Source: a virus
Reading direction: 5' to 3' (one strand)
Length of the DNA: 64,000 bases
Virus record (IMG/VR): IMGVR_UViG_3300036791_000462
Span: 1-64,000 of that record
The notes under the pieces were generated by a model, which made no database searches, was not told the DNA's origin, and saw only the letters and a list, made by a program, of their open reading frames with translations. Within the stretch, counting starts at the first letter, position 1. The number at the start of each line of letters is the position of its first letter. Shown here one piece after another: positions 9,864 through 36,894 of this stretch. Made by a program: the position numbers and the translations under genes.

Positions 9864-10505
9864 TCAGTTTTTTGCGCTGAGCGCGTCCCGCACGTCCTCG
9901 TCATCGAAGCCGGACAGCGCCATGATCTGCCCGGAGAGTTGGGCGATCAGCCCCGGCTTCGTGCGGAACTGCTTTTGCAACAGCGCCTCGGGGGTCACGC
10001 CGCGATCTCTCGCGAGTGCCTCGATGTCAGGGTCTACCGACCCGGCCATGATGATCTTCAGGTTCCCCAACGTGTCGATGGCGAGGTCGTCCTGACGCCC
10101 CCGTCGGCGCAGCGCCGAGGTGGTGCGCTGAATCCGGCGAAGCTCGTCGGAGTCGATGGGGCGCACGATCCACGACACCCACTTCGGAGCGTCGCCGACT
10201 CCCACGTTGAGTTCGAGGACGTGGGTTGGTTCCGTCTCCTCGTCCGGGTCTTCTGAGAGGAACCACTCCAGGGCAGAGGTCGCCTCGGGCTCGGATACCG
10301 GTCGGTCGTGCCCCAGGTCCGCGAGCACATCGGCGGTGGTGCGATCCTCGTCCTGTGGGCGATCCTCCCGGCCCCTGAGGGTCGTTGGGGGCGGCAGCGC
10401 CTGTTCGGCCTGCTGCGAGCGTTGTCTGCCCGCTACGCGCTGCTGGGGCGGCTCAGGAGACGGGACGCGAACGTCCGGCGCGTCCACAGTTTCGGTGTCT
10501 GACAT
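9864..10505 (-). CDS. Tail assembly chaperone (XkdN-like)
   Basis: This 213-aa protein is the short chaperone that coats the tape measure during tail assembly. It has an acidic, low-complexity N-terminus (residues 1-75), then a conserved-looking core (LELNVGVGDAPKWVSWIVRP, DELRRIQRTTSALRRRG, a KPGLIAQLSGQIM helix) matching XkdN-type proteins in style. It ends SAKN then TGA, with the slippery heptamer overlapping the last codons. It sits between the tube-side small protein and the tape measure, the usual place. Confidence 0.85.
   Translation of the reverse strand: MSDTETVDAPDVRVPSPEPPQQRVAGRQRSQQAEQALPPPTTLRGREDRPQDEDRTTADVLADLGHDRPVSEPEATSALEWFLSEDPDEETEPTHVLELNVGVGDAPKWVSWIVRPIDSDELRRIQRTTSALRRRGRQDDLAIDTLGNLKIIMAGSVDPDIEALARDRGVTPEALLQKQFRTKPGLIAQLSGQIMALSGFDDEDVRDALSAKN
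9867..9873 (-). promoter_or_regulatory. Programmed -1 ribosomal frameshift site AAAAAAC
   Basis: On the minus strand the end of the chaperone reads GCA AAA AAC TGA. The heptamer A AAA AAC fits the X XXY YYZ rule and stands directly before the zero-frame stop. A -1 slip opens straight into the downstream frame without any stop. This is the canonical arrangement for tail assembly chaperones. Confidence 0.85.
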
Positions 10506-11313: not shown

Positions 11314-11351
11314 TAGAAGTTCACCTCCTTCTTAGCTCACGTTAGGGGTTA
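11314..11351 (-). promoter_or_regulatory. Degenerate copy of the 19-bp operator, upstream of the tail tube gene
   Basis: The 19 bases at 11333-11351 read TAACCCCTAACGTGAGCTA on the minus strand, matching the outer positions of the dispersed inverted repeat. The first TAA is the stop codon of the sheath gene. The copy is weaker than the eleven clear ones; it may be a remnant or a late variant. A strong AAGGAGGTG Shine-Dalgarno follows. Confidence 0.4.
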
Positions 11352-15974: not shown

Positions 15975-17033
15975 TCAGGGGACGATTGAGCGGTATGCGC
16001 CGCGCGGGTCGATCACGCCGACGCCGAAGTCCGAGCGGACTTTGAAGTCAACGGAGTCGAGTTCGAACTGGTACGGATCGGTTCCCGCACCGAGCGCCAT
16101 TCTGACCATCGGGTCGCGGAGCATCACCTGCGGTTCCGCCTGGCCGTTCAGGAACCCGATAGCGAACCCTGGCACGTCGTTCGGATCAGCGAACAGGTAC
16201 CAGTCGTTCGAGTCGTGGAACCACGGGTCGCGAATCACGCCGTCGGCCGGGAGGATCCCCGCGAGCGGATTGATCGTCCCCTTGTCCATGTACAGCGTGC
16301 CGGTGCCCTTCGTGCCGCCGGTGTAGGTGACGTTCGTGCCTGTCTGGGTGGAGTTCAGAACGCGCTGGGCGGTCATCTGCATCCGGGCGTTGCGAACCAC
16401 CAGCGCCGACGGGGTGACGACGATCTGGTTGCCGTCGTCGTCCTGCTGTGACTCCATGAACGCGACAGCGTCGGCGAGCGAGTCCTCCGACAGCGGGTCA
16501 ACGACCTGGTTGCCACGGCCGACCGAGTAGAACGGGTTGCCGTCCGGTGCGTTGCCGGGGTTCTCGATCATCGCGATCACGGTCTGCAGGATGAACACAC
16601 CGGCCGCGTACCCCATGTCCGACGGGTTGCGGTTCAGTAGCTCGTTCGAGTCGTCGTTGATGATCGCCTGGCGGGTGATCTGATACACGCCGCCGTACGT
16701 GTCCACCGACAGGGCGGCCGGTGCACGCTCGGTGCGGCGCAGCCCTGGGTAGTGCCCGTGGTCGCCCACGTAGCCGATCCCGAGCAGGCCATTCAGACCA
16801 CGCAGACGCCGCTCGCGGAAGTCGGGCGCGTTCTCCTGCCGGGTGTAGCGCTGGTACTGCGCCTGCGCACGGCTGTAGCCCGTCCACATCGACTGGCGGA
16901 CCGGGCCGTACAGGAAGCTCGGGAAGTCGGCCTTGGAGTCGGCCTCCTCCAGCATCCGTTCGTCGCGCCATTCCTTGTACGCCTCCAGCAGGCGGATCGG
17001 CCTGCCGAACACACCGTATGGGTTGCCGTTCAT
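15975..17033 (-). CDS. Major capsid protein
   Basis: The 352-aa protein forms the shell. Its C-terminal half has the pattern of gpT/HK97-fold capsid proteins: VIRDPWFHDSNDWYLFADPN, then GFLNGQAEPQVMLRDP, then DFKVRSDFGVGVIDPRGAYR. The N-terminal third (FGRPIRLLEAYKEWRDERM) is helical. It has AGGAG before ATG 17033 and sits after the protease-scaffold and cement genes, the expected order. No N-terminal protease or scaffold is fused. Confidence 0.93.
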   Translation of the reverse strand: MNGNPYGVFGRPIRLLEAYKEWRDERMLEEADSKADFPSFLYGPVRQSMWTGYSRAQAQYQRYTRQENAPDFRERRLRGLNGLLGIGYVGDHGHYPGLRRTERAPAALSVDTYGGVYQITRQAIINDDSNELLNRNPSDMGYAAGVFILQTVIAMIENPGNAPDGNPFYSVGRGNQVVDPLSEDSLADAVAFMESQQDDDGNQIVVTPSALVVRNARMQMTAQRVLNSTQTGTNVTYTGGTKGTGTLYMDKGTINPLAGILPADGVIRDPWFHDSNDWYLFADPNDVPGFAIGFLNGQAEPQVMLRDPMVRMALGAGTDPYQFELDSVDFKVRSDFGVGVIDPRGAYRSIVP

Positions 17034-17134: not shown

Positions 17135-17521
17135 TCAGAAGCTGTCCTTCGTGTCGAGGTCGATCCGGACGCTGTTGGCGGGGGTGCCGCGCTGCCCGGC
17201 GACCTCCACGATCCGGCCGAACTTCACGTTGCCCGCCGAGGTTGCCGTCAGCGCCCCCGTCGCCGCAACGATGTAGATCGGGTCGCCCTTCACGTTCGCG
17301 GTGATCGGACCGTTCGGCACCTGCACCACGCCCTTCGTGATCAGGAAGAACGGTTCGCTCGCCGCGATCACCGCCGGGGTCTGGAACCCCTGTGTCCACG
17401 GCGGCGTCCTTTGTTTGACCGCGACCCCAACGAAGTTGGCGACTACCGCTGGCGCACCGTGGTTGAGCGCTGTGCCGCCGTTGGTGACGTAGACGCCTGG
17501 GCCTGGGCGGTTATATGGCAT
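17135..17521 (-). CDS. Capsid cement / decoration protein (DUF2190-like)
   Basis: A 128-aa beta-rich protein with the DUF2190 style: GVAVKQRTPPW, a central FFLITKGVVQVPNG, GDPIYIVAATGAL and a closing GRIVEVAGQRG. These proteins trim the outer face of capsids. It lies between scaffold and capsid genes and has AAAGGAG eight bases before ATG. Confidence 0.85.
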   Translation of the reverse strand: MPYNRPGPGVYVTNGGTALNHGAPAVVANFVGVAVKQRTPPWTQGFQTPAVIAASEPFFLITKGVVQVPNGPITANVKGDPIYIVAATGALTATSAGNVKFGRIVEVAGQRGTPANSVRIDLDTKDSF

Positions 17522-17551: not shown

Positions 17552-18091
17552 TCAGTCGTCCCACGCCTTGGCGGGATCGACTCCTGCTTCCTGGAGCACC
17601 GCGCCCCAGAGAGTTCCTTCGCCCTTCGCGGGCTCGTCCTCGCCCTCCCCGCGCTTGGCGGGAGCACCGACGCCCTGGCCGCGTACGGCGGTTGGGTTCG
17701 CGGCTGCGAGTAGCTCGCGCTGGTCGGAGATCGTTGCGGCAACGGACTCGGTCAGCTTCTCGGTCGCCTTTTTGGTCACCTTGCCGTCGTCGTCCACGTC
17801 GTCCACGACATCGAGCGCCGGGGTGGGACCGTTGTCGGCGATCTCGTACAGCGCCTTCGCGCGGCTCGCGAACGCTTCCGGGAGCTTGGACTCCGAGATC
17901 TGCGTGTGCGCCGCGTCGCGCATGTCCCGCAGATCAAGCTGCCGGTCAGCGTCAGCGCGAGCCTCGGCGCGAATCAGTTCGCGCTCGTCGGCGACCGCTG
18001 CCTCGACCAGCGTCTTGACACGCTCGTCCAGCATGCTCTGGAAGTCCTCACTGTGGAGAGCTTCCTGGAGCGCCTCTGGGGTGACACCCAT
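17552..18091 (-). CDS. Nested scaffold protein (internal start)
   Basis: Inside the protease-scaffold frame, ATG 18091 is preceded by AGAGGAG with six bases of spacing, one of the better ribosome-binding sites here. It would give a 179-aa protein (MGVTPEALQEALHSEDF onward) holding only the helical scaffold. Lambda C/Nu3 and other phages make free scaffold in this way. Expression is inferred from the site alone. Confidence 0.6.
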   Translation of the reverse strand: MGVTPEALQEALHSEDFQSMLDERVKTLVEAAVADERELIRAEARADADRQLDLRDMRDAAHTQISESKLPEAFASRAKALYEIADNGPTPALDVVDDVDDDGKVTKKATEKLTESVAATISDQRELLAAANPTAVRGQGVGAPAKRGEGEDEPAKGEGTLWGAVLQEAGVDPAKAWDD

Positions 18092-19036
18092 ATCTGTCTC
18101 CTCTGTGTTGGCTTCCTCGACTGTCGCTTCCTGGGCGTTCTTGAGAGCTTGCTGCGCCATCGCCTCCGCCTGCTTGTCCGAGAGCTTCGGGTTCTTCTTC
18201 TTGAGCTTGGCGACCATCTCGGCAAGCTCGTCGTCGCCCTGGTCAGCCGCGTCCTCCGCGTCACCGTCGGACTGCTCGGCGAGGAGGTGCGGGCGGACTT
18301 CCTCAACGTAAGCGACGAACTCCTCGTCCGTCATTGACTCCAGCAAACTCATCCCGTCCTCCTTGTAGGCGGCCTCCATCAGTTGGACGACGCGGCCACC
18401 AGCACCGGCTTCCGTCACCCAGTCAACGCTTCCGTGGTCCTCGATCCCTTCGACCAGCCACGCGCGGCGACCGCCGTGCATCGTGGGTTGCACACCCGTG
18501 GCGTTCGCGGAGATCGACGCTTCGACCAGTTCGGGATCGTTTTCGGCAAGCTCGCGGATGAACGGTGTCGGCAGCGACCAGCCAACGACCGCGCCCTGCC
18601 CGAACCCCTTGGACTCGTCGGCGGGCACGTTGCCGTCCCAGTAGCTCTCCACGATCCTGCCACCCAGGTCGCGGATCGAGCGGGGCAGCCCCTTCGCGGC
18701 CTTGCGCGCCTCCGGGCTCAGATGGTCGATGTACTGCCGCCACCCGGAGAACTTGTGCGCGTTCTCCTGCAGCATGTTCGCTTCGTAGATGTGACGGCCC
18801 CGGCCTTTGCCGAGGCACGGGCGCAGGATGTGCAGCGGCACGAGCTTGGAGCGCTCGTCCGCCTCGGTGGCGGTCGCCTCCTGCAGGTCCAGGCCGCGCT
18901 CGACAAGTCGATGGATGCGCTGTTCCTGAAGCTCGGCGGGGAACTCGACCGCGTCGCGCGATAGCGCGTACATCGACTCTCGCAGCACGGTCGCATCGAC
19001 GGGAATCTCTGTGTTTTCAGCCTCAAGCACACTCAT
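17552..19036 (-). CDS. Capsid maturation protease fused to scaffold
   Basis: The 494-aa protein combines a prohead protease (about residues 70-240) and a scaffold tail. The protease shows the likely catalytic His in YIDHLS, the Ser in EASISANATG, and the family pattern VEGIEDHGSVDWVTEAGAGG. Residues 270-494 are acidic, helical and Ala/Lys-rich, as in scaffolds, ending VDPAKAWDD. The ATG is only 7 bases after a TAGTAT box, so the message is probably leaderless. A second start inside the frame would give scaffold alone. Confidence 0.85.
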   Translation of the reverse strand: MSVLEAENTEIPVDATVLRESMYALSRDAVEFPAELQEQRIHRLVERGLDLQEATATEADERSKLVPLHILRPCLGKGRGRHIYEANMLQENAHKFSGWRQYIDHLSPEARKAAKGLPRSIRDLGGRIVESYWDGNVPADESKGFGQGAVVGWSLPTPFIRELAENDPELVEASISANATGVQPTMHGGRRAWLVEGIEDHGSVDWVTEAGAGGRVVQLMEAAYKEDGMSLLESMTDEEFVAYVEEVRPHLLAEQSDGDAEDAADQGDDELAEMVAKLKKKNPKLSDKQAEAMAQQALKNAQEATVEEANTEETDMGVTPEALQEALHSEDFQSMLDERVKTLVEAAVADERELIRAEARADADRQLDLRDMRDAAHTQISESKLPEAFASRAKALYEIADNGPTPALDVVDDVDDDGKVTKKATEKLTESVAATISDQRELLAAANPTAVRGQGVGAPAKRGEGEDEPAKGEGTLWGAVLQEAGVDPAKAWDD

Positions 19037-21126: not shown

Positions 21127-21201
21127 CTGGCCTCCTCGGTCGGAACATCAGTGGCGAGGGCCTTTCCCTCGCACCAACATCATAGCACAGGTCGTGCGCT
21201 A
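21127..21201 (-). promoter_or_regulatory. Operator/promoter copy 1 with 5' hairpin and start-associated element
   Basis: The 19-bp inverted repeat TAGCGCACGACCTGTGCTA lies at 21183-21201 (minus) and its 3' half runs into an extended -10, TGCTATGAT (TATGAT at 21179-21184). The predicted start of transcription falls at the 5' arm of a perfect 7-bp stem (GCGAGGG-AAAGG-CCCTCGC, 21154-21172). CCGACCGAGGAGG follows. The first TAG of the repeat is the stop codon of the fibre gene. Confidence 0.8.
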
Positions 21202-24200
21202 GGCGTTGCCGCCGAACCAGTTGTCACACAGCACGGTGCCGTTGCCGAGGATGCCCGGCGAACCGCCCGTGTAGGTGGTGTCCGTGAACGTCTGGATCGT
21301 CGTTCCGTTGAGCGACACGGTGAGCGTCGAGCCGTGCGCCGTCAGCCTCAGCCTGTCGCCGGGGCTCGGCGACGAGGTGTAGCCGGTGCCCAGTTGGGTG
21401 TAGTTGGTGTTGTCGCCCCGGTAGAGGTTGATGCTCCCGGAGATCCAGATGACGACGTACATGCTGAGGAGCGGGTCGGTGGTGCTGTTGGAGGAGCCCT
21501 GCATGCGCACCGCTGGGCCGATGGCGTTCCCCGTGAACGTCAGGGGCGCGGCGATCTCCGAGAAGTGATCGCTGGCGTAGGACTCGCCGGTGCGCAGAAG
21601 GCCCGAGTCGTACCCGCCGAGGGTCTGCGAAAGCTGAAGCTGGTTGCTGACGATGGTGCCCTTGGGCTGCTGGGTGAGCCAGTTGGTCCAAGCAGAACCT
21701 GGGTCGCCGTCGGCACGGTTGAAGTTGTCGGAGTAGACGACCGAGGTGTTGAAGTTCTGGAAGATCGCGTTGGCGTCCGTCTCGGTCGAGTAGTGCCCAG
21801 ACCAGAGCCGCACGAACAGCGAGCCAGTCGGAAACGGGTCGGCGATGCTGAACGCGGTTGTCCAACCGCTCCCGTCCGTTGAGTAGTCCCAGTAGATCGT
21901 GCCGCCCGACTCGCGAATCCGGACCCAGCACGGGCTCGCGGGCAGCGTGATCGGCGTCTGCCCGTGCGTCACACCCGCTGTAGTCCAGTAGATCGGCTCT
22001 ATCTGACGGGTACCGCTCGTCGCAACGAACTGCCACGCTGCCCCGCCTTGAGAGGTGCTGCCTGATGCCACGTCCAGTTCCAGTCCGGTCTGGAACGAGT
22101 TGTTGATTCCGGCTGGCGGCGGCGTCACTTGCACGGCCGCGTTTGACCCGGTCAGCGCCCATGCGTGTCGGGAGACGACCGCCGAGTTGGTGGTGCCTGC
22201 GAGTAACGCCAGCCCACTGCTCGATTCGCTGACGGTCCCGGACGTTCCCCATTTGGTGGTGTCAACAGACGCGCTCGCGAATGCGTCTTGCAGGTTTGCC
22301 ATCGGACTCATGGTGACGGTGGCGGTCGCAGCCGACGCGGCCTGCGCCACCGGCGCGAGCGCGACAGTTCCGGGCACCGCGACCGTAGCTGTGGCGCTCG
22401 CCGCCGCCCGTGCGGTGGGCGTGAGCGGCACAGGTGTCACGGCGGAGGCGTTGCCGCCCTGCCAGTTGTCGCAGGCAGCGGCACCGTTACCAGCGATGCC
22501 TGGAAGGCCACTCGTAAAGCGGGAGTCCGTGGTCGTGATGATCGTGGTGCCGTTCAGCGCCACGGTGAGCGTCGAGCCCAGAACCGTCAGCCTGAGCCTG
22601 TCGCCAGGAGTCGGCGTTGAGGCCACGCCGGTACCAAGCTGGGTGCTGCCACCGGTCGAGTCGGTAACGGCAAACAAGCCGATGTTGCCGCCATACCAGA
22701 TGGCTACGTACATGCCGTTCATCGTGCTCACCATGCGAACCGCTGGACCGATGGCGTTGCCGGTGAAGGTCAAAGGAGCCGCGACCTCGGAGAAGTGATC
22801 CGCGCCGTACGTCTCGCCGCCTGCGTTGCGAAGCAGGCCCGAGTCGCTACCGCCAGCATTGGCGAGCACCAGTTGGTTACTGACGATTGACGCGCGAGCC
22901 TGGGCGCTCCAGGTTTGCCAGTTCGGACCCGGATCACCGTCAGCGCGGTTGAAGTTGTCGCTGTAGGTGATCGCGGGCACGGTGATCGTCGCCGTGGCGC
23001 TCGCCTTCGCTTGCGCAGCGGGCGTGAGCGCCACGATGCCGACCATGCTGCCAACGGCTGGCTCGACCCAGCCTGACTGCCACTCGTGGGTGATGTTCGC
23101 CATCGCGCCGAGGGTGTGGGGAACCCCGAGGGAGGTGAGCAGCGCGTCGTAGTTCGTCACGTCCGCCTGGAAGGCGTTGTAGCCCCCGATCCAGATTCGG
23201 TTGGAGCCGGTGAGCGGTCCGCTGAGCGCCGTGACGTTCGCGGTCGAAAGCTGGTAGTTGGCGGCGAAGTTGGCCTGGTTGCCGAAAATGTCCGCGCCGT
23301 AGTCGTTGTAGTTGACCATGCCCTGGGCGGGGAAGTCCCAGGAGGCTGCCTTGGCGAAGATGTTCGGGAAGCGCAGCAGCAGATCCTGCGCCCCCATGCC
23401 TGAGCGCGAGAAGCCGATCAACAGGTTCTTTTCGCCGCCTGATCCGAACGTGCTTTTGACCCACTGGGTCACGTCGCCGACGAGGTAGGTGACGCGCTGG
23501 TCGCCGGTGTCCGTGATGCTGTTCCCGTACCAGTTCGCACCCGACAGGTTCGCGGCGATGATCGTCAGGTTGTACTTGTTGGCGAGCGCGAGCGGGACGG
23601 CCACGTCGCCCATCGGATCGCCGTAGGTCGCGCTGGGGTAGGCCTCGGTGGTGAGCATGTACAGGAAGTTGTGCGCGAGCCCAGGGTTGGGGGCCGTTGG
23701 CTGGAGCACGCGAACGGCGAGCGGGTTGCCGTCGTTGACGATTGGGGTGGTGGCGTTGTAGGTCGCGACGCCGTTGCCGTCCGTGCTCGCGAACAGGAAC
23801 GAGGCGGGCGGTGCAACCAGCGCTCTCGCTGCCGAGGCTGCGCCTGCGGTCGGAGTCAGCGCCGCCGTGCTGATCTGGGCGGTGACGTTCCCCGCCGCAA
23901 AGTTGTCGGCGGTGCATGTCGGGTAAAGCTGATAGCCCGGCTGCCCGGCGGTGCATCGGCTGTCGTTGACCGAGATCAACTCGGTGTTGTTCGCGCGGAT
24001 CGACAGGCGTGTGCCGTACGCCACCCCCGTGTAGACGGTGTTCGTCGGGTTGGGCGCTCCCGCCCCGCTGTTCTGGCAGTTCACGCTTGCGAGCGCCACC
24101 GAGTTTTGTCCGGCCTGGATGAAGTAGATCCGGAAGACCCGGCCCGGCATGAAGTAGCAGTACATGTAGCCGGTGGTCCCGTTCCACCGCAGAATCACAC

Positions 24201-25260
24201 CGATGAACGCGGAGCCTCCCAGCGTCGGCGGGACCGACCCAACACCGATCTGCGCCCACTGGTCGGGGCCGTAGGCTTCGTTGCGCTGCGCGGTGCGGTG
24301 ACCGCTTGAGCCTGAGATGTTGAGTTCGTTGGCAACGATGGTCCCGTCGGTGCTGACAACGCCCGAGAAGCTGACGGTGACGGGCGTCCACATTGACTGG
24401 CCCGCCGAGGCGTTCCCGTTGGCGCGGTTGAAGTTGTCAGAGCCAATCGCCGGGCCGAGCGTCGCGCCCATCGTCGCGTTCCCGCACGCGAAGTTGTCGA
24501 GCGTCATCGTCCCGAACGTGGTGATGCCCGGCGAGCCACCGGCGGGGATGTGGTCGTCCACAACCGCCAGTTGTGGGACGCCGTTGATCGACCCGACGAG
24601 CACGTCGCCGATCACGTAGAACTGCAGGGCGGTGCCGACCGCGAGCGCCCCGGCCAGTTGCACACCGTCGATCAGGGTGTAGGCCCCGACGTTGGTGCGG
24701 TAGTAGAAGTTCAGGACCGGCTGGGAGCCGTTGAAGTAGTAGAGCAGCGCGTATTCGGCGTTGGTGGAGACGTTGTGGCGCAGCGTCAGCCCGACGAAGT
24801 CGTTGACGACGTTGTTGACGGACCCAACGGTGCCCTGCGCAAACTGGTCGCCGCTGTAGGTTTCGCCTGAGCGATAGGCCCCCGCAAGCGACGCGCCGAC
24901 GCCGGACGCTTCGTTGGTGGCGATCACCGCGTTGCCGTCGCCGGTCGCTGTCCACCCGTTCGAGCCGCCGAGCGGCCCGTTGGCACGCTGGAAGTTGTCG
25001 GCGAAAAGCTGGTTCAGCGTCAGTTGCGGAAGCAGCGTCGGGAAGCTGACCGTCGCTGTCGCGGCCGACACCGCGCTCGCGTGCGGGCTCAGGTGCGCAG
25101 CGCCGGGGATGATCACCGCCAGGGTTGCCTGCGTCACCGCCCGCGCGACGACCGTCAGCGCAACCGGGCCGGGCTGCGGAGGAAGCACGGGGGCGGGAGG
25201 TAGCGTTGCCACCGTCGGCTGGGGCGTAAAGAGGACGAACACCCCAGAGCGGTCGATCAT
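21199..25260 (-). CDS. Giant tail fibre with an embedded esterase-like domain
   Basis: The start is ATG 25260, overlapping the upstream stop; the product is 1353 aa. It begins with Ala/Thr/Val repeats (ATATVS style) and then ConA-like beta-sandwich modules of the DNFNRADG...DNW..GN type. In the middle (about residues 500-770) is an alpha/beta-hydrolase domain: NFLYMLTTEAYPSATYGDPM, the nucleophile elbow LIGFSRSGMGAQDLL, WDFPAQG, and a closing ITHEWQSGW with the likely His. Three more sandwich modules follow, one almost the same as the first module of the 1994-aa fibre. The likely role is receptor binding with ester removal from surface glycan; the substrate is unknown. Confidence 0.85.
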   Translation of the reverse strand: MIDRSGVFVLFTPQPTVATLPPAPVLPPQPGPVALTVVARAVTQATLAVIIPGAAHLSPHASAVSAATATVSFPTLLPQLTLNQLFADNFQRANGPLGGSNGWTATGDGNAVIATNEASGVGASLAGAYRSGETYSGDQFAQGTVGSVNNVVNDFVGLTLRHNVSTNAEYALLYYFNGSQPVLNFYYRTNVGAYTLIDGVQLAGALAVGTALQFYVIGDVLVGSINGVPQLAVVDDHIPAGGSPGITTFGTMTLDNFACGNATMGATLGPAIGSDNFNRANGNASAGQSMWTPVTVSFSGVVSTDGTIVANELNISGSSGHRTAQRNEAYGPDQWAQIGVGSVPPTLGGSAFIGVILRWNGTTGYMYCYFMPGRVFRIYFIQAGQNSVALASVNCQNSGAGAPNPTNTVYTGVAYGTRLSIRANNTELISVNDSRCTAGQPGYQLYPTCTADNFAAGNVTAQISTAALTPTAGAASAARALVAPPASFLFASTDGNGVATYNATTPIVNDGNPLAVRVLQPTAPNPGLAHNFLYMLTTEAYPSATYGDPMGDVAVPLALANKYNLTIIAANLSGANWYGNSITDTGDQRVTYLVGDVTQWVKSTFGSGGEKNLLIGFSRSGMGAQDLLLRFPNIFAKAASWDFPAQGMVNYNDYGADIFGNQANFAANYQLSTANVTALSGPLTGSNRIWIGGYNAFQADVTNYDALLTSLGVPHTLGAMANITHEWQSGWVEPAVGSMVGIVALTPAAQAKASATATITVPAITYSDNFNRADGDPGPNWQTWSAQARASIVSNQLVLANAGGSDSGLLRNAGGETYGADHFSEVAAPLTFTGNAIGPAVRMVSTMNGMYVAIWYGGNIGLFAVTDSTGGSTQLGTGVASTPTPGDRLRLTVLGSTLTVALNGTTIITTTDSRFTSGLPGIAGNGAAACDNWQGGNASAVTPVPLTPTARAAASATATVAVPGTVALAPVAQAASAATATVTMSPMANLQDAFASASVDTTKWGTSGTVSESSSGLALLAGTTNSAVVSRHAWALTGSNAAVQVTPPPAGINNSFQTGLELDVASGSTSQGGAAWQFVATSGTRQIEPIYWTTAGVTHGQTPITLPASPCWVRIRESGGTIYWDYSTDGSGWTTAFSIADPFPTGSLFVRLWSGHYSTETDANAIFQNFNTSVVYSDNFNRADGDPGSAWTNWLTQQPKGTIVSNQLQLSQTLGGYDSGLLRTGESYASDHFSEIAAPLTFTGNAIGPAVRMQGSSNSTTDPLLSMYVVIWISGSINLYRGDNTNYTQLGTGYTSSPSPGDRLRLTAHGSTLTVSLNGTTIQTFTDTTYTGGSPGILGNGTVLCDNWFGGNA

Positions 25261-25637
25261 GCTGCTCCAGGTAGCGAAAGGTTGCCGAGGATCTGGACTT
25301 CGAGGTAGCTGTCGCTCGGGACGCGGGCGTACACCTGATCGTTGATGTCGTAGAGCGCAAACTCCACGTCGTAGATCCCGGCGGTCGCGGTGTCGGCCGG
25401 GATCCAGTCGTACTCGCACCAGCCGACGTTCGTGCCGGTGATCGCGTCGCCCTGCTGAAGCACGTTCGCTTCGGCATCGGTGGTCGGTGTCGCCCCACCG
25501 CGCTGGCGCATCACAAAGTGAACGTGGTCGGCCTGGCTGAGGTCCACCGGGGTTTTGTCGGCCTGGCTGAGAAGCACCCGGTATGGCGGCGAGGTGGCTC
25601 CCTGCTTGATCGTGAACGGGCCGGTCAAGAACGCCAT
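25257..25637 (-). CDS. BppU-like baseplate/fibre anchor protein
   Basis: A 126-aa protein whose fold resembles the N-terminal domain of baseplate upper proteins: FTIKQGATSPPYRVLLSQAD, PVDLSQADHVHFVMRQR, then EYDWIPADTATAGIYDVEF. These attach fibres to the tail. I use ATG 25637 because TAGCAT stands 7 bases before it, as for a leaderless message; ATG 25646 overlaps that box. It lies between the two giant fibres. Confidence 0.72.
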   Translation of the reverse strand: MAFLTGPFTIKQGATSPPYRVLLSQADKTPVDLSQADHVHFVMRQRGGATPTTDAEANVLQQGDAITGTNVGWCEYDWIPADTATAGIYDVEFALYDINDQVYARVPSDSYLEVQILGNLSLPGAA

Positions 25638-25650
25638 ACCCGGCATGCTA
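25638..25650 (-). promoter_or_regulatory. Leaderless-type -10 box before the BppU-like gene
   Basis: TAGCAT (25645-25650, minus) is separated by seven bases from ATG 25637, and no Shine-Dalgarno is present. The surrounding CTCTTAGCATG resembles the box before the protease-scaffold gene (GGCTTAGTATC). The same layout at two late genes suggests a late promoter class; this is an inference. Confidence 0.4.
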
Positions 25651-25675: not shown

Positions 25676-28600
25676 TTAGCTTTCGACGCCCGCGAGCATC
25701 CCCGTGTCGATGGTGGGTTGCGCGACGACCTCAAGATCTTCGACGCTGGCGCTGTACCGGCTCAGCAGCACCGTCGTGTACATCCTCAGGTCCACGACGG
25801 CGGCACTGGTGACGCTCGCGACCACTGACGCGCTGAGCGGCGGCTGCAGCGTCGTCAGGAGCGGCGCGACCAGGATCAGGGTCGCGCGAGTGGCTGCTGT
25901 CGCCGTCGCGAAGATCGAGGTTTGCCCTGCGACCGTCATCCTCGCCTGGGTCGCTGCCTGAGCGACGGGCACGAGCGCGACGACGGTGGGAACCTCGACC
26001 GTCGCGCTGGCTCTAGACGCCGCGCTGGCAGCGGGCGCGAGGAAGGCGGCTGTCAAAACACTCGCGGCAGCGGAGGTTTGCGCGCTGGCTGAGAGCACCA
26101 TCCGCACCCTCACGGCAACGGTCGCGGTCGCGGCAGCGGTGGCTCCCGCGCGTGCGAGCAGCGGCACCGCCCCGGCGGTCGCGAACATCACCGCCTGCGT
26201 CTGCGCAAGCGCGTCAGCGGTCAGTGCGACGGGCGCGGTTGTTAGGCTGACCGCCTGCGTCTGCGCCTGGGCGTGCGCCGCGAACTGCACTGGGGCAGTG
26301 AGTGCGGCCTGCGCCTGGGTGGCGGCAGCGGCCCTGGGGCTCAGGATGCTGCCGAGGATCACCGCCGCCAGCGCCTGGCTGCTTGCTGTAGCGCTGAGGT
26401 TCAGCAGGCTCGCGGCACGTGTCGCCGCCAGCGCCTGGCTGCTTGCCCCGGCGACCGGCGCGATGCTGACAACGTTCGCGACGCCCACGGCCATCGTCGC
26501 CTGGGTGGTTGCGGCGGCGCTTGGTGCAAGCTGGACGGCGGGGATGACCGTCGCGGTCGCTTGGGCTGCGGCGCTCGCTGCGGCGCTCAGCCGCATCGGG
26601 GCCTGAAGCTGAGCGGTGGCCTGCGTCACAGCACCGGCGGCGGCAGCGAGCTTCGTGGCGGCACTCAGGGGTGCTTGCGCCTGGGTGGCTGCCTGAGCGG
26701 TCACGATCAGCGCCGTCGCGGCAGTAAGCGGCGCGAGCGCCTGGGTGCTGGCGGCGGCGCTCAACGTCAGGAACGCGACGCCGGGCACCTGCATCCCGCT
26801 TGTCGCCTGCGACGCAGCCGTGGCAGTCAGAGAAAGCTGGACGGTAACGACAACGGTCGCGAGCGCCTGCGTGGAAGCTGCCGCCGTTGGCGCGATTGGC
26901 CGGGCGGGAATGACCGTCGCCTGCGCTTGTGATGTCGCCTGGGCGGTTGGGACGAGCAGCGTCGGGGCGTTGAGTACGCCAGTCGCAGCGGTTGCTGCCT
27001 GGGCGGTTAGGGCCAGCGCCTGCGCAGCTACCGGGATCGTGATCGTCGCGCTCGCCTGCGTCGCCGCCCCGGCCGTGGCGGTGACAGCCACGGGCGCGGC
27101 GTTGATGCTCTGGACGACCGCGTAGGGCACCACGACCGGCGCGGCATTGCCCGGATCGGTCTGGACGTAGAGCCCCACGATGTCGAGCCCCTTGACGTAG
27201 GGTGCCCACGCAAGTGGCGACCCTGCCGCCTCTGTCCACGCCACTGCGTCGGGCGAATACTCCATGTGTAGGTAGCCGTCGCCCGACTCCCTGACCCGCA
27301 GCCAGATGCTTCGGTCGGCGGCGAACGCGGACGACGGAATCCCGTTGCCCGACCCGCCGGGGCTGCTGAAGCTGGCGCACCACCAGTCGCCACCAGCCTT
27401 CGGACCGCCCGCCGCAGCACTCTGGTCGTAGAACTCGAAACCGACGCTGTTGGCGTCCCACGTCTGAATCTGGAAGTACGACCACGGCGGGTTATTCGAG
27501 TCGCCTGGTGTGAAGCGCAGGTACACCGCCGAGTTCGTGAGCCGGTACCAGTTCAGCGTCTGCATCCACTCGCCGCTGGTACCGCCCGAGTTCAACTGCA
27601 CCTGCCCGTTGCCTATCGGAGTCGCGCCATCGCCACTGAAGCTCCACTGGCTCAGGTCGTTGAAGGCATCCCTGAAGCCCGAGATCGGACCGAGGACCGG
27701 AAAGACGTGGCACGTCGCCTTCGTCTTTGCTGTCGCGCTCACCGTGAGCGGCTGTGCAACGACCGGGATCGTGACCGTCGCGACTGCCTGCGTGGCTGCT
27801 CCTGCCTGCACGATGATCGACGCCGCTCCGGTAACGACCGCGACTGTCAAAGCACTCGACGCGAGCGCGGTCGCTGTCAGCGGCTGCTGAGCGGCGACGA
27901 GCCCAGTCGCCTGGGTGCGCGCGGCAGTATTCGCGATCAGCAAGCTCGGCGCGGTGAGCGCGACCGTCGCCTGCGTCGCAGCGTTCGCGACAGCCGTCAG
28001 CGGAACGCCGCCGACGGACATGGTCGCCAGCGCGCTCGTCGCTGCGTACGCTGCTACGCCGCCGACGCCCGCCACGGTGCCCGCGCTGTAGTGGGCGAGC
28101 ACCTGCGTCGGCGTCAACACGTAGTTGTAGATCGCAGCCTCGTCCAGGACGCCGTCGAAGAACTGGGTGGTGCCGGTACCCCCCCAGCCGACCATCAGGT
28201 CGTGGCTCTGGTCGGAGACTGTGAGCGTCGTGTCACCAAGCGTCGTCACTGCTGCGCCATCGACGTACATCACGCATCCGTTCGCGACTCCGGACCGGAA
28301 CGTGAGCACCACATGGTGGGCGTTGCCATCGTTGAGATTCGGCCCGTTGGTGCCGTACCCGCCGCCGCCGCTGTTGAAGAACGCGAACCCGGTCCAGTCG
28401 AAAGCGTCGATGTAGCCGTTCGGATTGACGAAAATCCCGAATCCGTACTGCTTTACGATCACCGCCTGCAACTGGCCGCTCGGCGGCGGCGAGGCCAGCT
28501 TGAACCAGCCCTCGACAGATCCCGTGGTGAGTTGGAACGCGCTGGGATTGCCGCAATCGACGTAGCCGCTCGTGCCGTCGAACGTCGTTGCCTTGTCGGG

Positions 28601-31600
28601 GTCCGACGGGAGCAGGCCGGGCTGGCTCTGCGTGTACCCGCCGGTGTATGTACCGGGATCGCCGGAACCCGAGGAATCGACGGCGGTGGTAGTCGTGTCG
28701 TCCAGCCGCCAGTAGCCGGTCGGCGCGTCGGACAACACCGTGGCCCGGTAGTTGGCGGTCGGCGCTCCACCCAGCAGGACAGCGGCGGTAGTGAAGCCAT
28801 GGGCGCTCGTCGTCGCTTGCGCCGAGAGCGAAAGCGTGACCGCCCCGGTAACCACGACCGTCAGAGCGCTCGACGCGCGGGCGGTCGCTGTAAGCGGCTG
28901 CGGAGCAGTGACGAACGCGGTCGCCTGGGTGATCGCGACAGCGGTCGCGGTCAGCAGGCTCGAAGCGGTAAGCGTGACCGTCGCCTGCGTCACGGCGTTC
29001 GCTACGGCCGTCAGCGGAATGCCGCCGACGGACACGGTTGCGAGCGCCTGCGTAGCCGCTTGCGCGCTCGGAGCCAGCACGCTCGCGGTAGTCAGCGACA
29101 CGCTCGCGGCCGACGTGGCCCCGGCCGTCAGAGCGAGCTTCACCGCTGCGGTGACCGCAACGGTTGCGCTCGTGGTAGCCCCAGCGCTTGCGCTCAGCGC
29201 CGTAGCGGCGCGCAGGACAACAGTCGCCTGGGACGCCGTCGCAGCGGTTGGTGTGAGCAATGACGGCGCGCTCAGAACCGTCGTTGCTTGTGCTGTCGCC
29301 CCGGCGGTTGGAGCAAGCGCCTGGGCGGTGATCGTCGTGACCGTGGCAGTGGCCGCACTCGCGGCCTGAGCGGCGGTCGCCGCAACAACATTGCCGCCGG
29401 ACCAGTTGTCGCCCGTCGCGGTGTTGCTGAAGATGATGATTCCGGGAGCGCCGCCGCTCGGGAACTGGGTGTCGGTCGTCGTCAGCGCCAACGCACCGTT
29501 CTGGTACAGCGACAGCGTCGAGCCCACCACGCTCAGCATCAGCGTGGTGCCCGCTGGCAGCGGGGTCGCGCCGAGCACCGTCGTCGCTAGCGTCGAGCCT
29601 GTGCCTGACACCCGCTTGCCGATCCGCAGTTCGTAGCTGCCGCCGTTGTTGAAGTAGATGAACCGGTAGAGGTTCTGGCCGGTAGCGAGGTCGGCGCGCA
29701 CGCAGGTTCCGATCCAGTCGCTGAGCCCAGGCGGCGTTTCGACCTGGATCTGTGACCACTGGTCGTTGCCGTAAGTCTCGCCGCGAAGGATCTCGTGCCA
29801 GGTCGCGCTGGTCACGCCTTTGATCTGTTGGGAGACGATCACCGGCGCGGCGTCGAACCCGGTGACCCAGCCACCACCGACAGCGCCGTCGGCACGATTG
29901 AAGTCGTCGGAGGCGACTTGCACATTCCCCCCGGCCGCGCCACCGGGTTGCAACCAGACGGGCGCGGTGAGCGGAGCCAGCGCCTGTGTCGCAGCACTCG
30001 CTGTCGGCGTCAGTAGCTGAGCGGTCGGCGCAGTAACGGTGGCGGTCGCCTGGCTGGCTGCGCCAGCGGTCGGGGTCAGCCGCGTAGCGGCGAAGACCGT
30101 TGCGGTCGCTGCAGACGCAGTCCCGGCGCTCGCTGTGAGCTTCGCTGCGGCGGTTGTGGCAGCGAGCGCCTGGCTGGCCGCACCGGCCACTGGCGCGATT
30201 GGTATTGCGGTCGGCGCTGTGACGGTGGCGGTCGCCTGGCTCGCGGCCCTGGCGACCGGGGCCATGTACGGCTGACCCGTACCGATGCCGTAGTGGGTGG
30301 CAACCTGCGCCGCGCTCAGCACAACGCCGTAGACAGCAACCTCGTCAATCGAGCCCTGGAAGTTGCTGCCACTGCCGGGGTTGCGGTCGAAGATGCAGAG
30401 CGCGCCGTTGGTCGCGATTGAGTTCGCGGTCGCTGCCGCCGTCCCGACCTGTACGCCGTTGATGTAGCACTTCAGCACGGTCGCCGGGTCGTAGGTCATG
30501 ACGATGTGCTGCGTCACTCCAACCTGCGCGACAGGCGAGTTGACTGCGGTTGTGATTCGCGCCGCAGCGGAGTCGAAGACGTTGAACTCCCAGCGCCCAT
30601 CACCGGTCTGGTAGTGGCGGATGTACCACAACTGGTCGCTGCCACGAGAGATGACCTGCGGGCTGCCGCTGGCCGGTATCCCCGAGGGCTTGACCCACGC
30701 TTCGACGGTCAGCGCGGTGGTCACGTCCAGGCTGGCGCTCGTCGGGATGTTGATGTAGCTGGTGGTGCTGCCGAACGCGGGAGCGTTGCTCGCGGCGGCG
30801 TCTGCGCTGTTCGTAATCAAGCCGCCCGCGTTGTAGGCGATGCTCGACCCGACCGTGGTCGATGGGTTGGTGCCCTTTGAGTCCTGGAACTGGCCGGACG
30901 TTTCATCGAGCCGCCAGTAGGAGATCAGCCCCGCTTCGGACAGAATCAGGTCGCGGTAGGCGGTGGTCGGGATGATGACGTTCGCCGCCGCCTGGCTGGC
31001 CGCCCCGGCGGTAGCGTTCAAAGGCTGCGCTACCGGTGGAACGTTGAAGTTGTCAAAGGTGGCGTTGGTGTCAGTCTCAGCCGCGTAGTACCCCGCCCAA
31101 AGCTGCGGGAACATCGCACCGGTCGGGAACGGATCGGCGATGCTGAACTGGTTCGTCCAGTTGACCGCGTCCGTCGAGTAGTCCCAGTAGAGCGTCCCGG
31201 CCGACTCGCGGATCCGAACCCAGAGCGTGCTGGCTGGCAGCGTGATCGCGGTCTGCAGGTGCGACGTGCCTCCCGTGTCCCAGTAGACCGGCTGTATCTG
31301 CCGCGTGCCGCTGGTCGCGACGAACTCCCACGCCGCGCCGCCCTGGCTGTTCGAGCCCTGTGCAATGTCGATCTCGACACCGGTCTGAAACGAGTTGTTG
31401 GTACCAGCCGGTGGCGGCGTCACCTGCGCGAGCATGCTTGAGCCAGTCAGCACCCACGGTCGCTGGGCGATAACCCCCGAGTAGGCGGTCGTCGCGAGCA
31501 CCGCCAAGGTGCCGCCCGACTCGGTGACGGTGCCGTACGTCGTCCACTTGCCGGTGTCAACAGACGCGCCCGAGAACGTGTCGGTCAGCGTCGCCAGCGG

Positions 31601-31660
31601 TGCCGCCTGCCAGGTCGGCAGGACAGGGTGCGACGGGTATGTCCTGCCGGTGCGAGCCAT
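25676..31660 (-). CDS. Giant tail fibre of ConA/LamG-like modules and Ala/Thr-rich repeats
   Basis: The 1994-aa protein starts at ATG 31660 (overlap with the upstream stop). Five beta-sandwich modules can be seen: LTDTFSGASVDTGKW, YRDLILSEAGLISYWRLDE (LamG type), DDFNRADGAVGGGW, YRATVLSDAPTGYWRLDD (LamG type) and FRDAFNDLSQWSFSG. Between them and over the last 450 residues run some dozens of 18-19-residue repeats (pattern L..TA.AA.QA.A.V..P). The repeats probably form a long beta shaft that displays sugar-binding heads. The gene is the largest in the window and its repeats look prone to recombination. Confidence 0.85.
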   Translation of the reverse strand: MARTGRTYPSHPVLPTWQAAPLATLTDTFSGASVDTGKWTTYGTVTESGGTLAVLATTAYSGVIAQRPWVLTGSSMLAQVTPPPAGTNNSFQTGVEIDIAQGSNSQGGAAWEFVATSGTRQIQPVYWDTGGTSHLQTAITLPASTLWVRIRESAGTLYWDYSTDAVNWTNQFSIADPFPTGAMFPQLWAGYYAAETDTNATFDNFNVPPVAQPLNATAGAASQAAANVIIPTTAYRDLILSEAGLISYWRLDETSGQFQDSKGTNPSTTVGSSIAYNAGGLITNSADAAASNAPAFGSTTSYINIPTSASLDVTTALTVEAWVKPSGIPASGSPQVISRGSDQLWYIRHYQTGDGRWEFNVFDSAAARITTAVNSPVAQVGVTQHIVMTYDPATVLKCYINGVQVGTAAATANSIATNGALCIFDRNPGSGSNFQGSIDEVAVYGVVLSAAQVATHYGIGTGQPYMAPVARAASQATATVTAPTAIPIAPVAGAASQALAATTAAAKLTASAGTASAATATVFAATRLTPTAGAASQATATVTAPTAQLLTPTASAATQALAPLTAPVWLQPGGAAGGNVQVASDDFNRADGAVGGGWVTGFDAAPVIVSQQIKGVTSATWHEILRGETYGNDQWSQIQVETPPGLSDWIGTCVRADLATGQNLYRFIYFNNGGSYELRIGKRVSGTGSTLATTVLGATPLPAGTTLMLSVVGSTLSLYQNGALALTTTDTQFPSGGAPGIIIFSNTATGDNWSGGNVVAATAAQAASAATATVTTITAQALAPTAGATAQATTVLSAPSLLTPTAATASQATVVLRAATALSASAGATTSATVAVTAAVKLALTAGATSAASVSLTTASVLAPSAQAATQALATVSVGGIPLTAVANAVTQATVTLTASSLLTATAVAITQATAFVTAPQPLTATARASSALTVVVTGAVTLSLSAQATTSAHGFTTAAVLLGGAPTANYRATVLSDAPTGYWRLDDTTTTAVDSSGSGDPGTYTGGYTQSQPGLLPSDPDKATTFDGTSGYVDCGNPSAFQLTTGSVEGWFKLASPPPSGQLQAVIVKQYGFGIFVNPNGYIDAFDWTGFAFFNSGGGGYGTNGPNLNDGNAHHVVLTFRSGVANGCVMYVDGAAVTTLGDTTLTVSDQSHDLMVGWGGTGTTQFFDGVLDEAAIYNYVLTPTQVLAHYSAGTVAGVGGVAAYAATSALATMSVGGVPLTAVANAATQATVALTAPSLLIANTAARTQATGLVAAQQPLTATALASSALTVAVVTGAASIIVQAGAATQAVATVTIPVVAQPLTVSATAKTKATCHVFPVLGPISGFRDAFNDLSQWSFSGDGATPIGNGQVQLNSGGTSGEWMQTLNWYRLTNSAVYLRFTPGDSNNPPWSYFQIQTWDANSVGFEFYDQSAAAGGPKAGGDWWCASFSSPGGSGNGIPSSAFAADRSIWLRVRESGDGYLHMEYSPDAVAWTEAAGSPLAWAPYVKGLDIVGLYVQTDPGNAAPVVVPYAVVQSINAAPVAVTATAGAATQASATITIPVAAQALALTAQAATAATGVLNAPTLLVPTAQATSQAQATVIPARPIAPTAAASTQALATVVVTVQLSLTATAASQATSGMQVPGVAFLTLSAAASTQALAPLTAATALIVTAQAATQAQAPLSAATKLAAAAGAVTQATAQLQAPMRLSAAASAAAQATATVIPAVQLAPSAAATTQATMAVGVANVVSIAPVAGASSQALAATRAASLLNLSATASSQALAAVILGSILSPRAAAATQAQAALTAPVQFAAHAQAQTQAVSLTTAPVALTADALAQTQAVMFATAGAVPLLARAGATAAATATVAVRVRMVLSASAQTSAAASVLTAAFLAPAASAASRASATVEVPTVVALVPVAQAATQARMTVAGQTSIFATATAATRATLILVAPLLTTLQPPLSASVVASVTSAAVVDLRMYTTVLLSRYSASVEDLEVVAQPTIDTGMLAGVES

Positions 31661-32463: not shown

Positions 32464-32982
32464 CTACACCCTCCAGATCCGGTCGGCGACCGGCTCGGAC
32501 CAGTCGGGCGCGGGGTCGCTGGAGAACCAGTACGACGCACCGGGTCGCATGCGGCCCATGATCAGCCGGTTGATCTGCTGCTGGTGCTCAAGGTCGAGCG
32601 CGAGCCCGTTGCAGTGGACCACGTCGTAGTCCGAGTACGCCGTGAACTCCTCGGCGTTGACGCAGGTCGCGCGCAGCTTGGGGTACAGGCTCAGTGACGC
32701 CTCGACGTAGGGCTCGTACCGTTCGATGCCGTCAGCGCCAAACCCCAGGATGTCGGCCAGGAACAGCTTGCTGCCGATCCCGGAGCCCACGTCCAGGAAG
32801 CGGTAGCGGCCCTCGCCCAACAGCCGCCGAACACGGTCGATGCCGTCGTAGAACTCCACGACGGCCGAGGGCTGGTAGGAGTACCACACCTGCTCGTCAT
32901 CCGGAAACGGCGGCGTGAATGCCGTTTCAAGATGCGTGACAAGCTGCTGTGCCGCCTCCTGAAAGATCGGATAGCCGTTCAT
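32464..32982 (-). CDS. Class I SAM-dependent methyltransferase
   Basis: The 172-aa protein has a Rossmann-type motif I (YRFLDVGSGIGSKLFLADIL), an acidic motif II (DGIERYEPYVEAS), then NAEEFTAYSDYDVVHCNGLA for motifs III/IV and a C-terminal WFSSDPAPDW strand. It is small, without a recognisable target domain. Its place within the fibre cassette suggests modification of a virion or host surface component rather than DNA, but the substrate cannot be read. Confidence 0.82.
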   Translation of the reverse strand: MNGYPIFQEAAQQLVTHLETAFTPPFPDDEQVWYSYQPSAVVEFYDGIDRVRRLLGEGRYRFLDVGSGIGSKLFLADILGFGADGIERYEPYVEASLSLYPKLRATCVNAEEFTAYSDYDVVHCNGLALDLEHQQQINRLIMGRMRPGASYWFSSDPAPDWSEPVADRIWRV

Positions 32983-34828: not shown

Positions 34829-35068
34829 TTAGTGCTCGGCGATACCGAGCCGCGCGAGGCGCAGCTTTGAGTAGAGCATCGCTATCGCGCTGATCAGCGC
34901 ATCTATCGTCTCCTCGCCCGACATTTCGGTATCGAGGTAAAGCTGGCCCTGGCGGGTTTTGGTCATCGTGATGCCCTCCACCGTGCTCTCGGCCAGCGCT
35001 TCGTTGAGGAACTCCGGTCCGATCTTGAACGACTCGGGCTCGGCCCCTGTTCGCTTGCGTAGTCTCAC
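34829..35068 (-). CDS. 79-aa hypothetical protein
   Basis: A small protein at the end of the operon led by the 609-aa zinc-finger protein, overlapping it by four bases. It starts at GTG after GGAGAGGAGG. The fold is likely two strands (GITMTKTRQGQLYLDTEMSG) and a long helix (DALISAIAMLYSKLRLARL). The function is unknown. Confidence 0.65.
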   Translation of the reverse strand: MRLRKRTGAEPESFKIGPEFLNEALAESTVEGITMTKTRQGQLYLDTEMSGEETIDALISAIAMLYSKLRLARLGIAEH

Positions 35069-36894
35069 ATCCCCTCCTCTCCCTGCGTCGTGGTTTGCAG
35101 TTCCTTGAGCTTCGCCTGGTCGGCCTCCAGCCGGTTGATCAGCCTGGTCAGCCGGTCGATCTGCTCCTGGTAGTAGCGCTTCCAGTCGCCGCTGTCGGCG
35201 TGGCTCAGCGAGTCGTTGTAGTCGTTGTAGCTCGCGCGAGCCGCGTCGATCTGCTCGTCCAGCATCGTGGGGTCGAGCCGCCGCAGACGGTCCTGCTCGC
35301 GCTCAGCGGCGGTTTTCGTGACCTCGATCTCGGTGGCCTCAGCGTCAGCCTCGACCACCGTGATCGAGCGGAGGTTGGTCACCTGGGTGACCTTCCCGCC
35401 GCCGTTGTAGGAGTCCGTCTCGTGCTTCTTGATCGTCGCGCTGCAGGTGACCGTGGTGCCCTGGTCGATCCCGCCAGCACCCCACCAGATGATCCCGTTG
35501 CCGTCCCGGTCATAGCCCTTCGTCAGCCACCGGGTGCCGTACTGGCCCTCGAAGCTCTTGACGAACGTGACGGTGAAGGTCAGGCCCTTGATCCGGTCGC
35601 CAACGGAGCCGATCCACTCCGAGCCCGCCGTCCGCTTGGCCTCCAGTTGACGCTGCAACTCCCGCTGGTAGGCCCCGATGGCGGAGGCGACGAACCCGTC
35701 GCCCTTCTCGCCCAGGTAGTCGGCGCGGCAGTAAGTGGTCAGGTTGTGCTCGAACTCTGAAAGCTCGTCACGCTCGCTCAGGTCATCGCGGACCCAGTCC
35801 AGGGCGGTGGTCGCGATCTCGCGATCCTCGTCGGTGGTCGCGACCCGCAGCTTCGCGTTGCGCTCCAGGTAGTTGTCCTTCGCCCGGTCGGCGGTCGCGC
35901 CGTAGTTCCGGGTGAAGTCCCCGTAGGAATCGTCCCGCGTCCACCGGGGCGTCCACCCGAACTCGCGAATCATCGCCGCGACGTTCGTCAGGAAGTCCCG
36001 TGTGGGGATCGCGATCCGGCCGCCGCCGATCCCGACATCGCCGAACCCGTCGTCGCCGGACTCGAACCCGAGGTCGGCGTACAGCGCCTCCAGCCACTCG
36101 GCCCACGCTGCGACACGCTCGGGATTGTGAGCGCCGGTGTAGTCGCCCAAGCAAGTTGACCCAATCTGCCTCAGTTCGCCGGTTGCGACCTCGAACAGGA
36201 TGTAGGTCTGCTTGCGGCGGCGGTTGAAACCGCAGTGGTCGCAGTCAGGCCCGGCGTGCCGGTAGCTGGTCAGGTCAGCGGCCTCAACGGCCGCAGCGGC
36301 CTCCTCACCGATCTTGTTCTTGAGGAACGTTCCGACGGGCGCGCGGCGGATGCCGACACTCTCGTCAGCGCCCTGGTCGGCGTCGTGATCCAAAGTTGCA
36401 AGAAAAACCCACCCCCCAATCTGCGGCGTCTCGCCGTTGACGGTGATGAAGGTGAAGTCGATGACCCGCTCGACGTAATCGCGGGTCGTGCCCTCGACCG
36501 CCAGCAGCGCCGCCGACACACTGTCGGTGGCGGGGCGCATCTCGCGGCGGACCTCCTGGTCCTTCTCGTCAGAGACGGTCAGCGTGATCTCGCCGGTCCC
36601 GAGCTTGACGGCCTTCTTGTTCAGCTTGGTGATCCGCTCGCGAAGCTCGGCCATCTTGGAGTCAACAACGCGGAAGACGCGCCCGCCGACCTCCTCGCGC
36701 AGCGCGGCGACCTCGGCGATCAGCCGGTCGGCCTTCGCCTGGGCGGCGATCACGGTGGGGTGCTCGTAAACGTTGACGCGCTCACGGGCGCGAGCGTCAA
36801 GGCTCCAGTAGATGTCCTCGTAAGCGACAGACACCTCGGTCCGCGCTTCACGCGCATCCTGCTGGCGCTCGTAAACAGTTCTCAGGTCAGTCAT
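35065..36894 (-). CDS. Zinc-finger and OB-like protein, probably nucleic-acid binding
   Basis: The 609-aa protein is the first gene after operator copy 2. The N-terminal third is coiled coil. At about residues 215-255 is a metal-type site (CDHCGFNRRRKQTYIL, then QIGSTCLGDY). Near residues 430-510 is an OB-like beta domain (FTVTFVKSFEGQYGTRWLTK, TVTCSATIKKHET). A second coiled coil closes it. The zinc/OB pairing suggests DNA or RNA binding. No enzyme motif is seen. Its role is unknown; it sits in an early-type operon between virion modules. Confidence 0.7.
   Translation of the reverse strand: MTDLRTVYERQQDAREARTEVSVAYEDIYWSLDARARERVNVYEHPTVIAAQAKADRLIAEVAALREEVGGRVFRVVDSKMAELRERITKLNKKAVKLGTGEITLTVSDEKDQEVRREMRPATDSVSAALLAVEGTTRDYVERVIDFTFITVNGETPQIGGWVFLATLDHDADQGADESVGIRRAPVGTFLKNKIGEEAAAAVEAADLTSYRHAGPDCDHCGFNRRRKQTYILFEVATGELRQIGSTCLGDYTGAHNPERVAAWAEWLEALYADLGFESGDDGFGDVGIGGGRIAIPTRDFLTNVAAMIREFGWTPRWTRDDSYGDFTRNYGATADRAKDNYLERNAKLRVATTDEDREIATTALDWVRDDLSERDELSEFEHNLTTYCRADYLGEKGDGFVASAIGAYQRELQRQLEAKRTAGSEWIGSVGDRIKGLTFTVTFVKSFEGQYGTRWLTKGYDRDGNGIIWWGAGGIDQGTTVTCSATIKKHETDSYNGGGKVTQVTNLRSITVVEADAEATEIEVTKTAAEREQDRLRRLDPTMLDEQIDAARASYNDYNDSLSHADSGDWKRYYQEQIDRLTRLINRLEADQAKLKELQTTTQGEEGM

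Follow-up and report, generated by a model that had tools for sequence, protein, structure and literature searches.

A Predicted Alpha/Beta-Hydrolase Domain Between ConA-Like Modules in a Fibre-Type Protein of an Uncultivated Contractile-Tailed Phage

Introduction

Does an uncultivated phage carry, inside a fibre-type protein, an enzyme that would remove ester groups from a glycan on the surface of its host? This question is raised by a gene at positions 21199..25260 (minus strand) in the first 64 kb of the 107,110-base uncultivated virus record IMGVR_UViG_3300036791_000462; these 64,000 nucleotides are the stretch analyzed here (the window). An earlier note, made from the sequence alone, had described the gene product as an esterase-like alpha/beta-hydrolase embedded in a tail fibre. 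Among enzymatic fibres, those known to deacylate surface sugars instead of degrading them mostly have SGNH folds. SGNH-domain fibre or tailspike esterases are represented by gp63.1 of Escherichia phage G7C, gp66 of Pectobacterium phage Possum and the SGNH-type esterases of Klebsiella prophage fibres (PMC9569702, PMC13123978), and O-deacetylation was shown for Possum by nuclear magnetic resonance (PMC9569702). Esterase activity is also known for the tailspikes of the Schitoviridae phages Moo19 and B2 (PMC11654681).

The gene product probably forms an appendage (fibre) on the virion of a contractile-tailed phage: modules resembling carbohydrate-binding modules (CBMs) would hold a host surface polysaccharide while a serine esterase deacylates it.

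Results

Modular Architecture of the Carrier Protein

The interval corresponds exactly to one open gene on the minus strand (ATG at 25260, stop at 21199-21201), encoding a modular virion-type protein of 1353 amino acids (aa) with the order N - A1 - A2 - hydrolase - A3 - B - A4. All of its parts are given here by minus-strand coordinates. The N-terminal region (aa 1-80; 25021..25260), with two L.P.A.A.(T/S).A.A-type repeats, is followed by the ConA/CBM66-like modules A1 (all-beta; aa 81-268; 24457..25020) and A2 (aa 269-462; 23875..24456). The alpha/beta-hydrolase (esterase-like) domain (aa 486-743; 23032..23805) comes next and is followed by a third ConA/CBM66-like module, A3 (aa 759-952; 22405..22986), by B, a second LamG/ConA-like module type (aa 985-1172; 21745..22308), and by the ConA/CBM66-like module A4 (aa 1173-1353; 21202..21744), to which A3 is identical at 114 of 172 positions. 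Thus, the placement of the hydrolase between ConA-like modules, as read in the earlier note, was borne out.

In an internal comparison, the A modules proved mutually homologous (z 14-64 vs. shuffles). They are also homologous to one module of a neighbouring 1994-aa protein, the N-terminus of which is identical to the B module at 124 of 191 positions. The best PDB match of the A-module model (predicted local distance difference test, pLDDT, of 53) was CBM66 (E 1.8e-4); galectins and laminin-G domains came next. The sequence identity of the A module to this CBM66 of Bacillus subtilis (4b1m/4azz) is, however, below 20%. 'ConA-like' appears to be a reasonable label for these modules on the basis of the model, and sugar binding by them may be inferred. 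No obvious signal peptide was seen on inspection of the protein sequence. The gene had no PHROG match, and no useful Pfam or PHROG label was obtained for the gene as a whole.

Predicted Fold and Catalytic Residues of the Hydrolase Domain

Structure prediction of residues of about 490-780 had been suggested in the earlier note, and homologues now bound the domain to about aa 486-743. The AlphaFold2 model (mean pLDDT 76.8, predicted template modelling score 0.83) has a predicted alpha/beta-hydrolase fold. Foldseek returned 1092 PDB matches at E <= 0.001, with antigen 85C as the best; antigen 85, esterase D and S-formylglutathione hydrolase were matched with E values of about 1e-9. A profile built from six sequences matched PDB structures of S-formylglutathione hydrolases and esterases (E 1e-7 to 1e-6). 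The window copy scored below the gathering cut-off of the Pfam family Esterase (PF00756; 17.7 vs. 22 bits), which was passed by the homologues L002, L003, L004, L043 and L044. No SGNH model was among the Pfam matches of the window protein, and the predicted fold is esterase-D-like. Homologues, profile and predicted fold, all far beyond chance, thus uphold a hydrolase core with the elbow GFSRSGMG and a closing HEW.

Conservation of the catalytic residues was assessed in an alignment of 35 sequences with 25-40% identity. The nucleophile Ser618 (23407..23409) in GFSRSGMG (aa 616-623) was present in all 35 sequences. The window elbow follows GxSxSG, with Ser rather than Gly at the fifth residue, and in the profile alignments its nucleophile falls on the catalytic Ser of esterases with solved structures (GHSMGG, GLSMGG). 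The proposed catalytic base His725 (23086..23088), in HEWQSGW (HEW at aa 725-727), was conserved in 33 of 34 sequences. The proposed catalytic acid Asp642 (23335..23337), in WDxP directly after the predicted strand beta6, was present in 34 of 35; the homologue L044 has Gln at this site. An alternative acid, Asp700 (23161..23163), follows beta7; it is disfavoured because the site is Asp in only 8 of 35 sequences and usually His (20/35), although a separate comparison of four sequences, from phages and Streptomyces, showed Asp in each. These four residues are likewise encoded on the minus strand. Ser618-His725-Asp642 is therefore the proposed catalytic triad, with Asp642 after beta6 as the most likely acid. 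A described group of alpha/beta-hydrolases, 'group B', has its acid at the end of beta6 (PMC7034887). Rather than a fold lacking a Ser-His-acid triad, an outcome against which the earlier note had cautioned, an alpha/beta-hydrolase fold was predicted and the putative triad residues were conserved.

The Hydrolase Lies in a Variable Cassette

A scan with the scaffold protein as the anchor yielded 16 relatives; L134 and L115 (IMGVR_UViG_3300021403_000022) are one contig. This contig represents a close sister with the same gene order, the capsid proteins being 86% and the scaffold proteins 82% identical. Its orthologue of the hydrolase gene, which matches window aa 76-458 with 65% identity, ends after A2 (DNFAAGNA-stop) and has no hydrolase; therefore, hydrolase, A3, B and A4 constitute an extension in the window phage. 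In the relatives covering the upstream interval, the region from the RecT-like gene (35065..36894, minus strand) to the scaffold/protease-like gene (17552..19036, minus strand; 75-89% identical in most sisters) is a changing cassette. Its constant element is a small conserved virion-type gene (25257..25646, minus strand). In L133, L144, L141 and L115, the domain of this gene is followed by differing extensions, often with collagen-like tracts. L143 contains the small gene and a 2062-aa relative of the 1994-aa protein and nothing more, while L140 lacks the small gene, the fibre gene and a relative of the 1994-aa protein. The hydrolase was found in none of the sister cassettes examined (L115, L133, L140, L141, L143 and L144).

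Since the L115 gene ends after two modules and five more sisters are without the domain, the hydrolase is, judged from these comparisons, located in a swappable C-terminal extension. Presence or absence within an otherwise syntenic block is typical of host-attachment genes, and the cassette varies between syntenic sisters as expected of a host-attachment module. This variability is the strongest evidence for the hydrolase as an attachment accessory.

Other arrangements were seen in the cassettes of the sisters. In L115 (6726-7934), a fusion joins the small constant gene with a collagen-like tract and a C-terminal knob; the knob also occurs in L043 and other contigs with A modules. In L141 (7395-8441), a GT2-like glycosyltransferase gene stands in place of the hydrolase/fibre gene, beside a collagen-like fibre gene. 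A BppU-type name given by eye to the small gene of the window was dropped, as Pfam and PDB profiles with six aligned members gave no match.

Homologues and Relatives Pairing Modules with the Hydrolase

Relatives of the domain were found at 34-38% identity (E 1e-33 to 1e-42). A first genome scan with the hydrolase gave three homologues; 32 of 257 Bryobacterales genomes contained homologues at E <= 1e-30, and an even draw of 396 Acidobacteriota genomes added two. By eye, the standalone bacterial homologues appear to be exported. The secreted acidobacterial, mainly Bryobacterales, hydrolases (L002-L048) share 30-40% identity over the whole domain with the window copy; unlike it, they are cellular and mostly without a module. 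Three Streptomyces plasmid records contained relatives with 25-28% identity, one of which sits among sugar-nucleotide genes.

Homologues were also present in two phage contigs. The 20-kb contig L043, podophage-like and unrelated to the window phage, carries an SU10/P22-like portal gene and an SU10-like capsid gene. It encodes a 472-aa protein composed of one A module (67 of 168 positions identical to A1) and the hydrolase, from a gene between the portal and the scaffold/capsid genes. In the L044 protein, a start resembling a signal peptide precedes the hydrolase, and modules follow at the C-terminus. The gene belongs to a series of successive fibre-like genes (L044 2994-10168), each with a signal-peptide-like N-terminus, which is unusual for virion proteins. 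The same A-plus-hydrolase order was found in the acidobacterial chromosomal protein L048, which has a signal peptide and is 26% identical over 525 residues (E 6e-35). A prophage origin of L048 was rejected, as the gene is flanked by ftsH and kdp genes within a large contig; the protein (1279-3042) has a Lys/Asp/Cys-rich repeat tail.

On their own, A modules are widespread among environmental phages, with 208 stretches confirmed. At the 80 loci read, the hydrolase accompanied them in L053 only, which is the contig of L043, and in nine long phage-contig proteins the only catalytic partner was one GH16-like domain (L103), besides fn3 domains. A search for the hydrolase in 12 further phage records was negative. 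Weak matches to Gordonia 'minor tail protein' genes were antisense to the annotated gene and were attributed to chance.

Genomic Surroundings

Judged from its genes, the window virus is a contractile-tailed phage. A sheath gene (11349-12821; PHROG 279, 1e-44), a tail assembly chaperone gene (9864-10505) and a tape measure gene (5521-9603) were identified. The tape measure protein contains a phage tail lysozyme domain as well as a stretch with weak VanY likeness. The major capsid protein is encoded at 15975..17033 (minus strand; PF25209, 1.2e-34), while the portal and terminase genes are located past the window end. Capsid relatives in the order Bryobacterales are distant (26-34% identity), the best match of the RecT-like gene is an acidobacterial phage, and relatives of the B module occur in Streptomyces phages.

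The neighbouring 1994-aa protein (25676..31660, minus strand) combines LamG (PF13385, 2.5e-42) with A- and B-type modules and may serve as a stalk. It contains 27 matches to a repeat of about 20 residues (L.P.A.A.TQA.A..AP), which also makes up linkers in the hydrolase protein. A methyltransferase-like open reading frame (ORF) lies within the fibre cassette (32464-32982); in Hiyaavirus phages, too, a methyltransferase gene is located close to those for capsid and fibre. Between the capsid and scaffold genes, a single tRNA-Pro (ggg; 17366-17465) overlaps an ORF called at 17135-17521. Farther away, a 952-aa protein (48746-51604) with a Zeta_toxin kinase-like domain (1.7e-22) carries the PHROG label 'minor head protein', and a 530-aa protein with an ADP-ribosyltransferase-like domain is encoded near the portal gene (L013 13053-14645; record 77053-78645).

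Discussion

The probable role of the protein as a glycan-deacylating fibre implies the following sequence of events. The carbohydrate-binding-like modules would anchor the particle to acylated polysaccharide on the host surface, bringing the esterase up against it. Ser618 would then attack the ester carbonyl, with His725, paired with Asp642, as the base, and water would release the acyl-enzyme. Acyl groups, perhaps acetyl, would be removed while the sugar backbone stays uncut, and this deacylation could ease binding, movement or release during adsorption. We infer that the protein is incorporated into the particle, that it is catalytically active on a glycan and that it influences host range. 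A glycan substrate is indirectly suggested because the modelled modules resemble CBM66 and galectins, homologues are exported, one relative sits in a sugar-nucleotide cluster and there is precedent. Like the SGNH fibre esterases, the window protein would have an ester-cleaving domain within a host-attachment protein, and the known ones remove acetyl groups and leave the backbone uncut where tested. Unlike them, it has a predicted classical alpha/beta-hydrolase fold, repeated ConA/CBM66-like flanks and a gene near head genes. With PF00756, esterase D, S-formylglutathione hydrolase and antigen 85 it shares the fold, the nucleophile elbow and profile similarity, but differs from them in its score below the Pfam cut-off and in the acid, which is apparently located after beta6 (group B, PMC7034887) and not after beta7.

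The following observations weigh against this reading. First, the gene adjoins the scaffold and capsid genes and lies outside the tail module. Second, the His appears to be replaced in L048, although the A-plus-hydrolase pair is kept. Third, the structure prediction of the A modules is of low confidence. Fourth, queries of INPHARED with the hydrolase, the complete protein and the domain of L043 returned no annotated phage relative. Proteins of the Arthrobacter phages Seahorse and Faja (one of 694 aa), listed as 'Esterase' in BFVD, do have an alpha/beta-hydrolase fold, but only 12-14% identity to the window hydrolase.

The gene position points to the head as much as to the tail. It is thus possible, though not favoured, that the protein is a head-attached (capsid) fibre with the same esterase function, which would keep the particle for longer in the vicinity of cells or particles with a glycan coat. 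The window phage, its sister L115 and the unrelated L043 all have the module gene immediately upstream of scaffold/capsid genes, and an A-module gene precedes a capsid gene in L081. In addition, B-module relatives of Streptomyces Hiyaavirus phages, annotated as 'minor tail protein', are encoded between the capsid and the head-to-tail adaptor. However, gene position is only a hint, as fibre genes can sit apart from the tail module, and the L044 relative lies beside long fibre-like genes. Moreover, the record begins within baseplate genes, and further fibre genes may be absent from its start.

A catalytically dead hydrolase fold retained for binding only is unlikely. Some family members may be inactive, as the loss of His in L048 suggests, and carbohydrate-binding modules dominate the protein; the window copy, however, keeps Ser, Asp and His together with the motifs GFS.SG.G, WD.P and H.W.SGW. 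An esterase of the mycolate type (antigen 85 or lysin B-like), acting on cell wall lipids and not on acylated surface sugar, is quite improbable. Antigen 85C was indeed the best Foldseek match, but esterase D and S-formylglutathione hydrolase score equally, the lack of a PHROG match includes the lysin B families, and the bacterial homologues were found mostly in Acidobacteriota, which are not known to have mycolate. Least of all, the gene might be a non-virion gene carried for the host cell, e.g., for a secreted nutrient-acquiring esterase, as the exported bacterial homologues could suggest; this is very improbable given that the phage protein shows no evident signal peptide, its start ATG overlaps the stop of the upstream 129-aa constant cassette gene by 4 bases, its modules are common to the 1994-aa neighbour, and the first two of them are kept in sister phages without the hydrolase.

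A broader scenario is speculative and, in our estimation, doubtful: a unit of a CBM66-like module and a hydrolase with a group B acid, common to secreted enzymes of soil Acidobacteriota, might pass into unrelated soil phages, where recombination between modules would insert it in head-side fibre cassettes as a removable and possibly capsid-displayed glycan esterase.

With deacylation of a host surface glycan as the preferred function, the window domain would be a sequence-distant alpha/beta-hydrolase version of the fibre esterase, which it has in common with secreted soil-bacterial enzymes and which the present searches turned up in no sequenced phage isolate. A location on the head would make the protein a head fibre that bears an enzyme. 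The close sisters with and without the hydrolase offer a natural comparison for the contribution of the esterase to host attachment.

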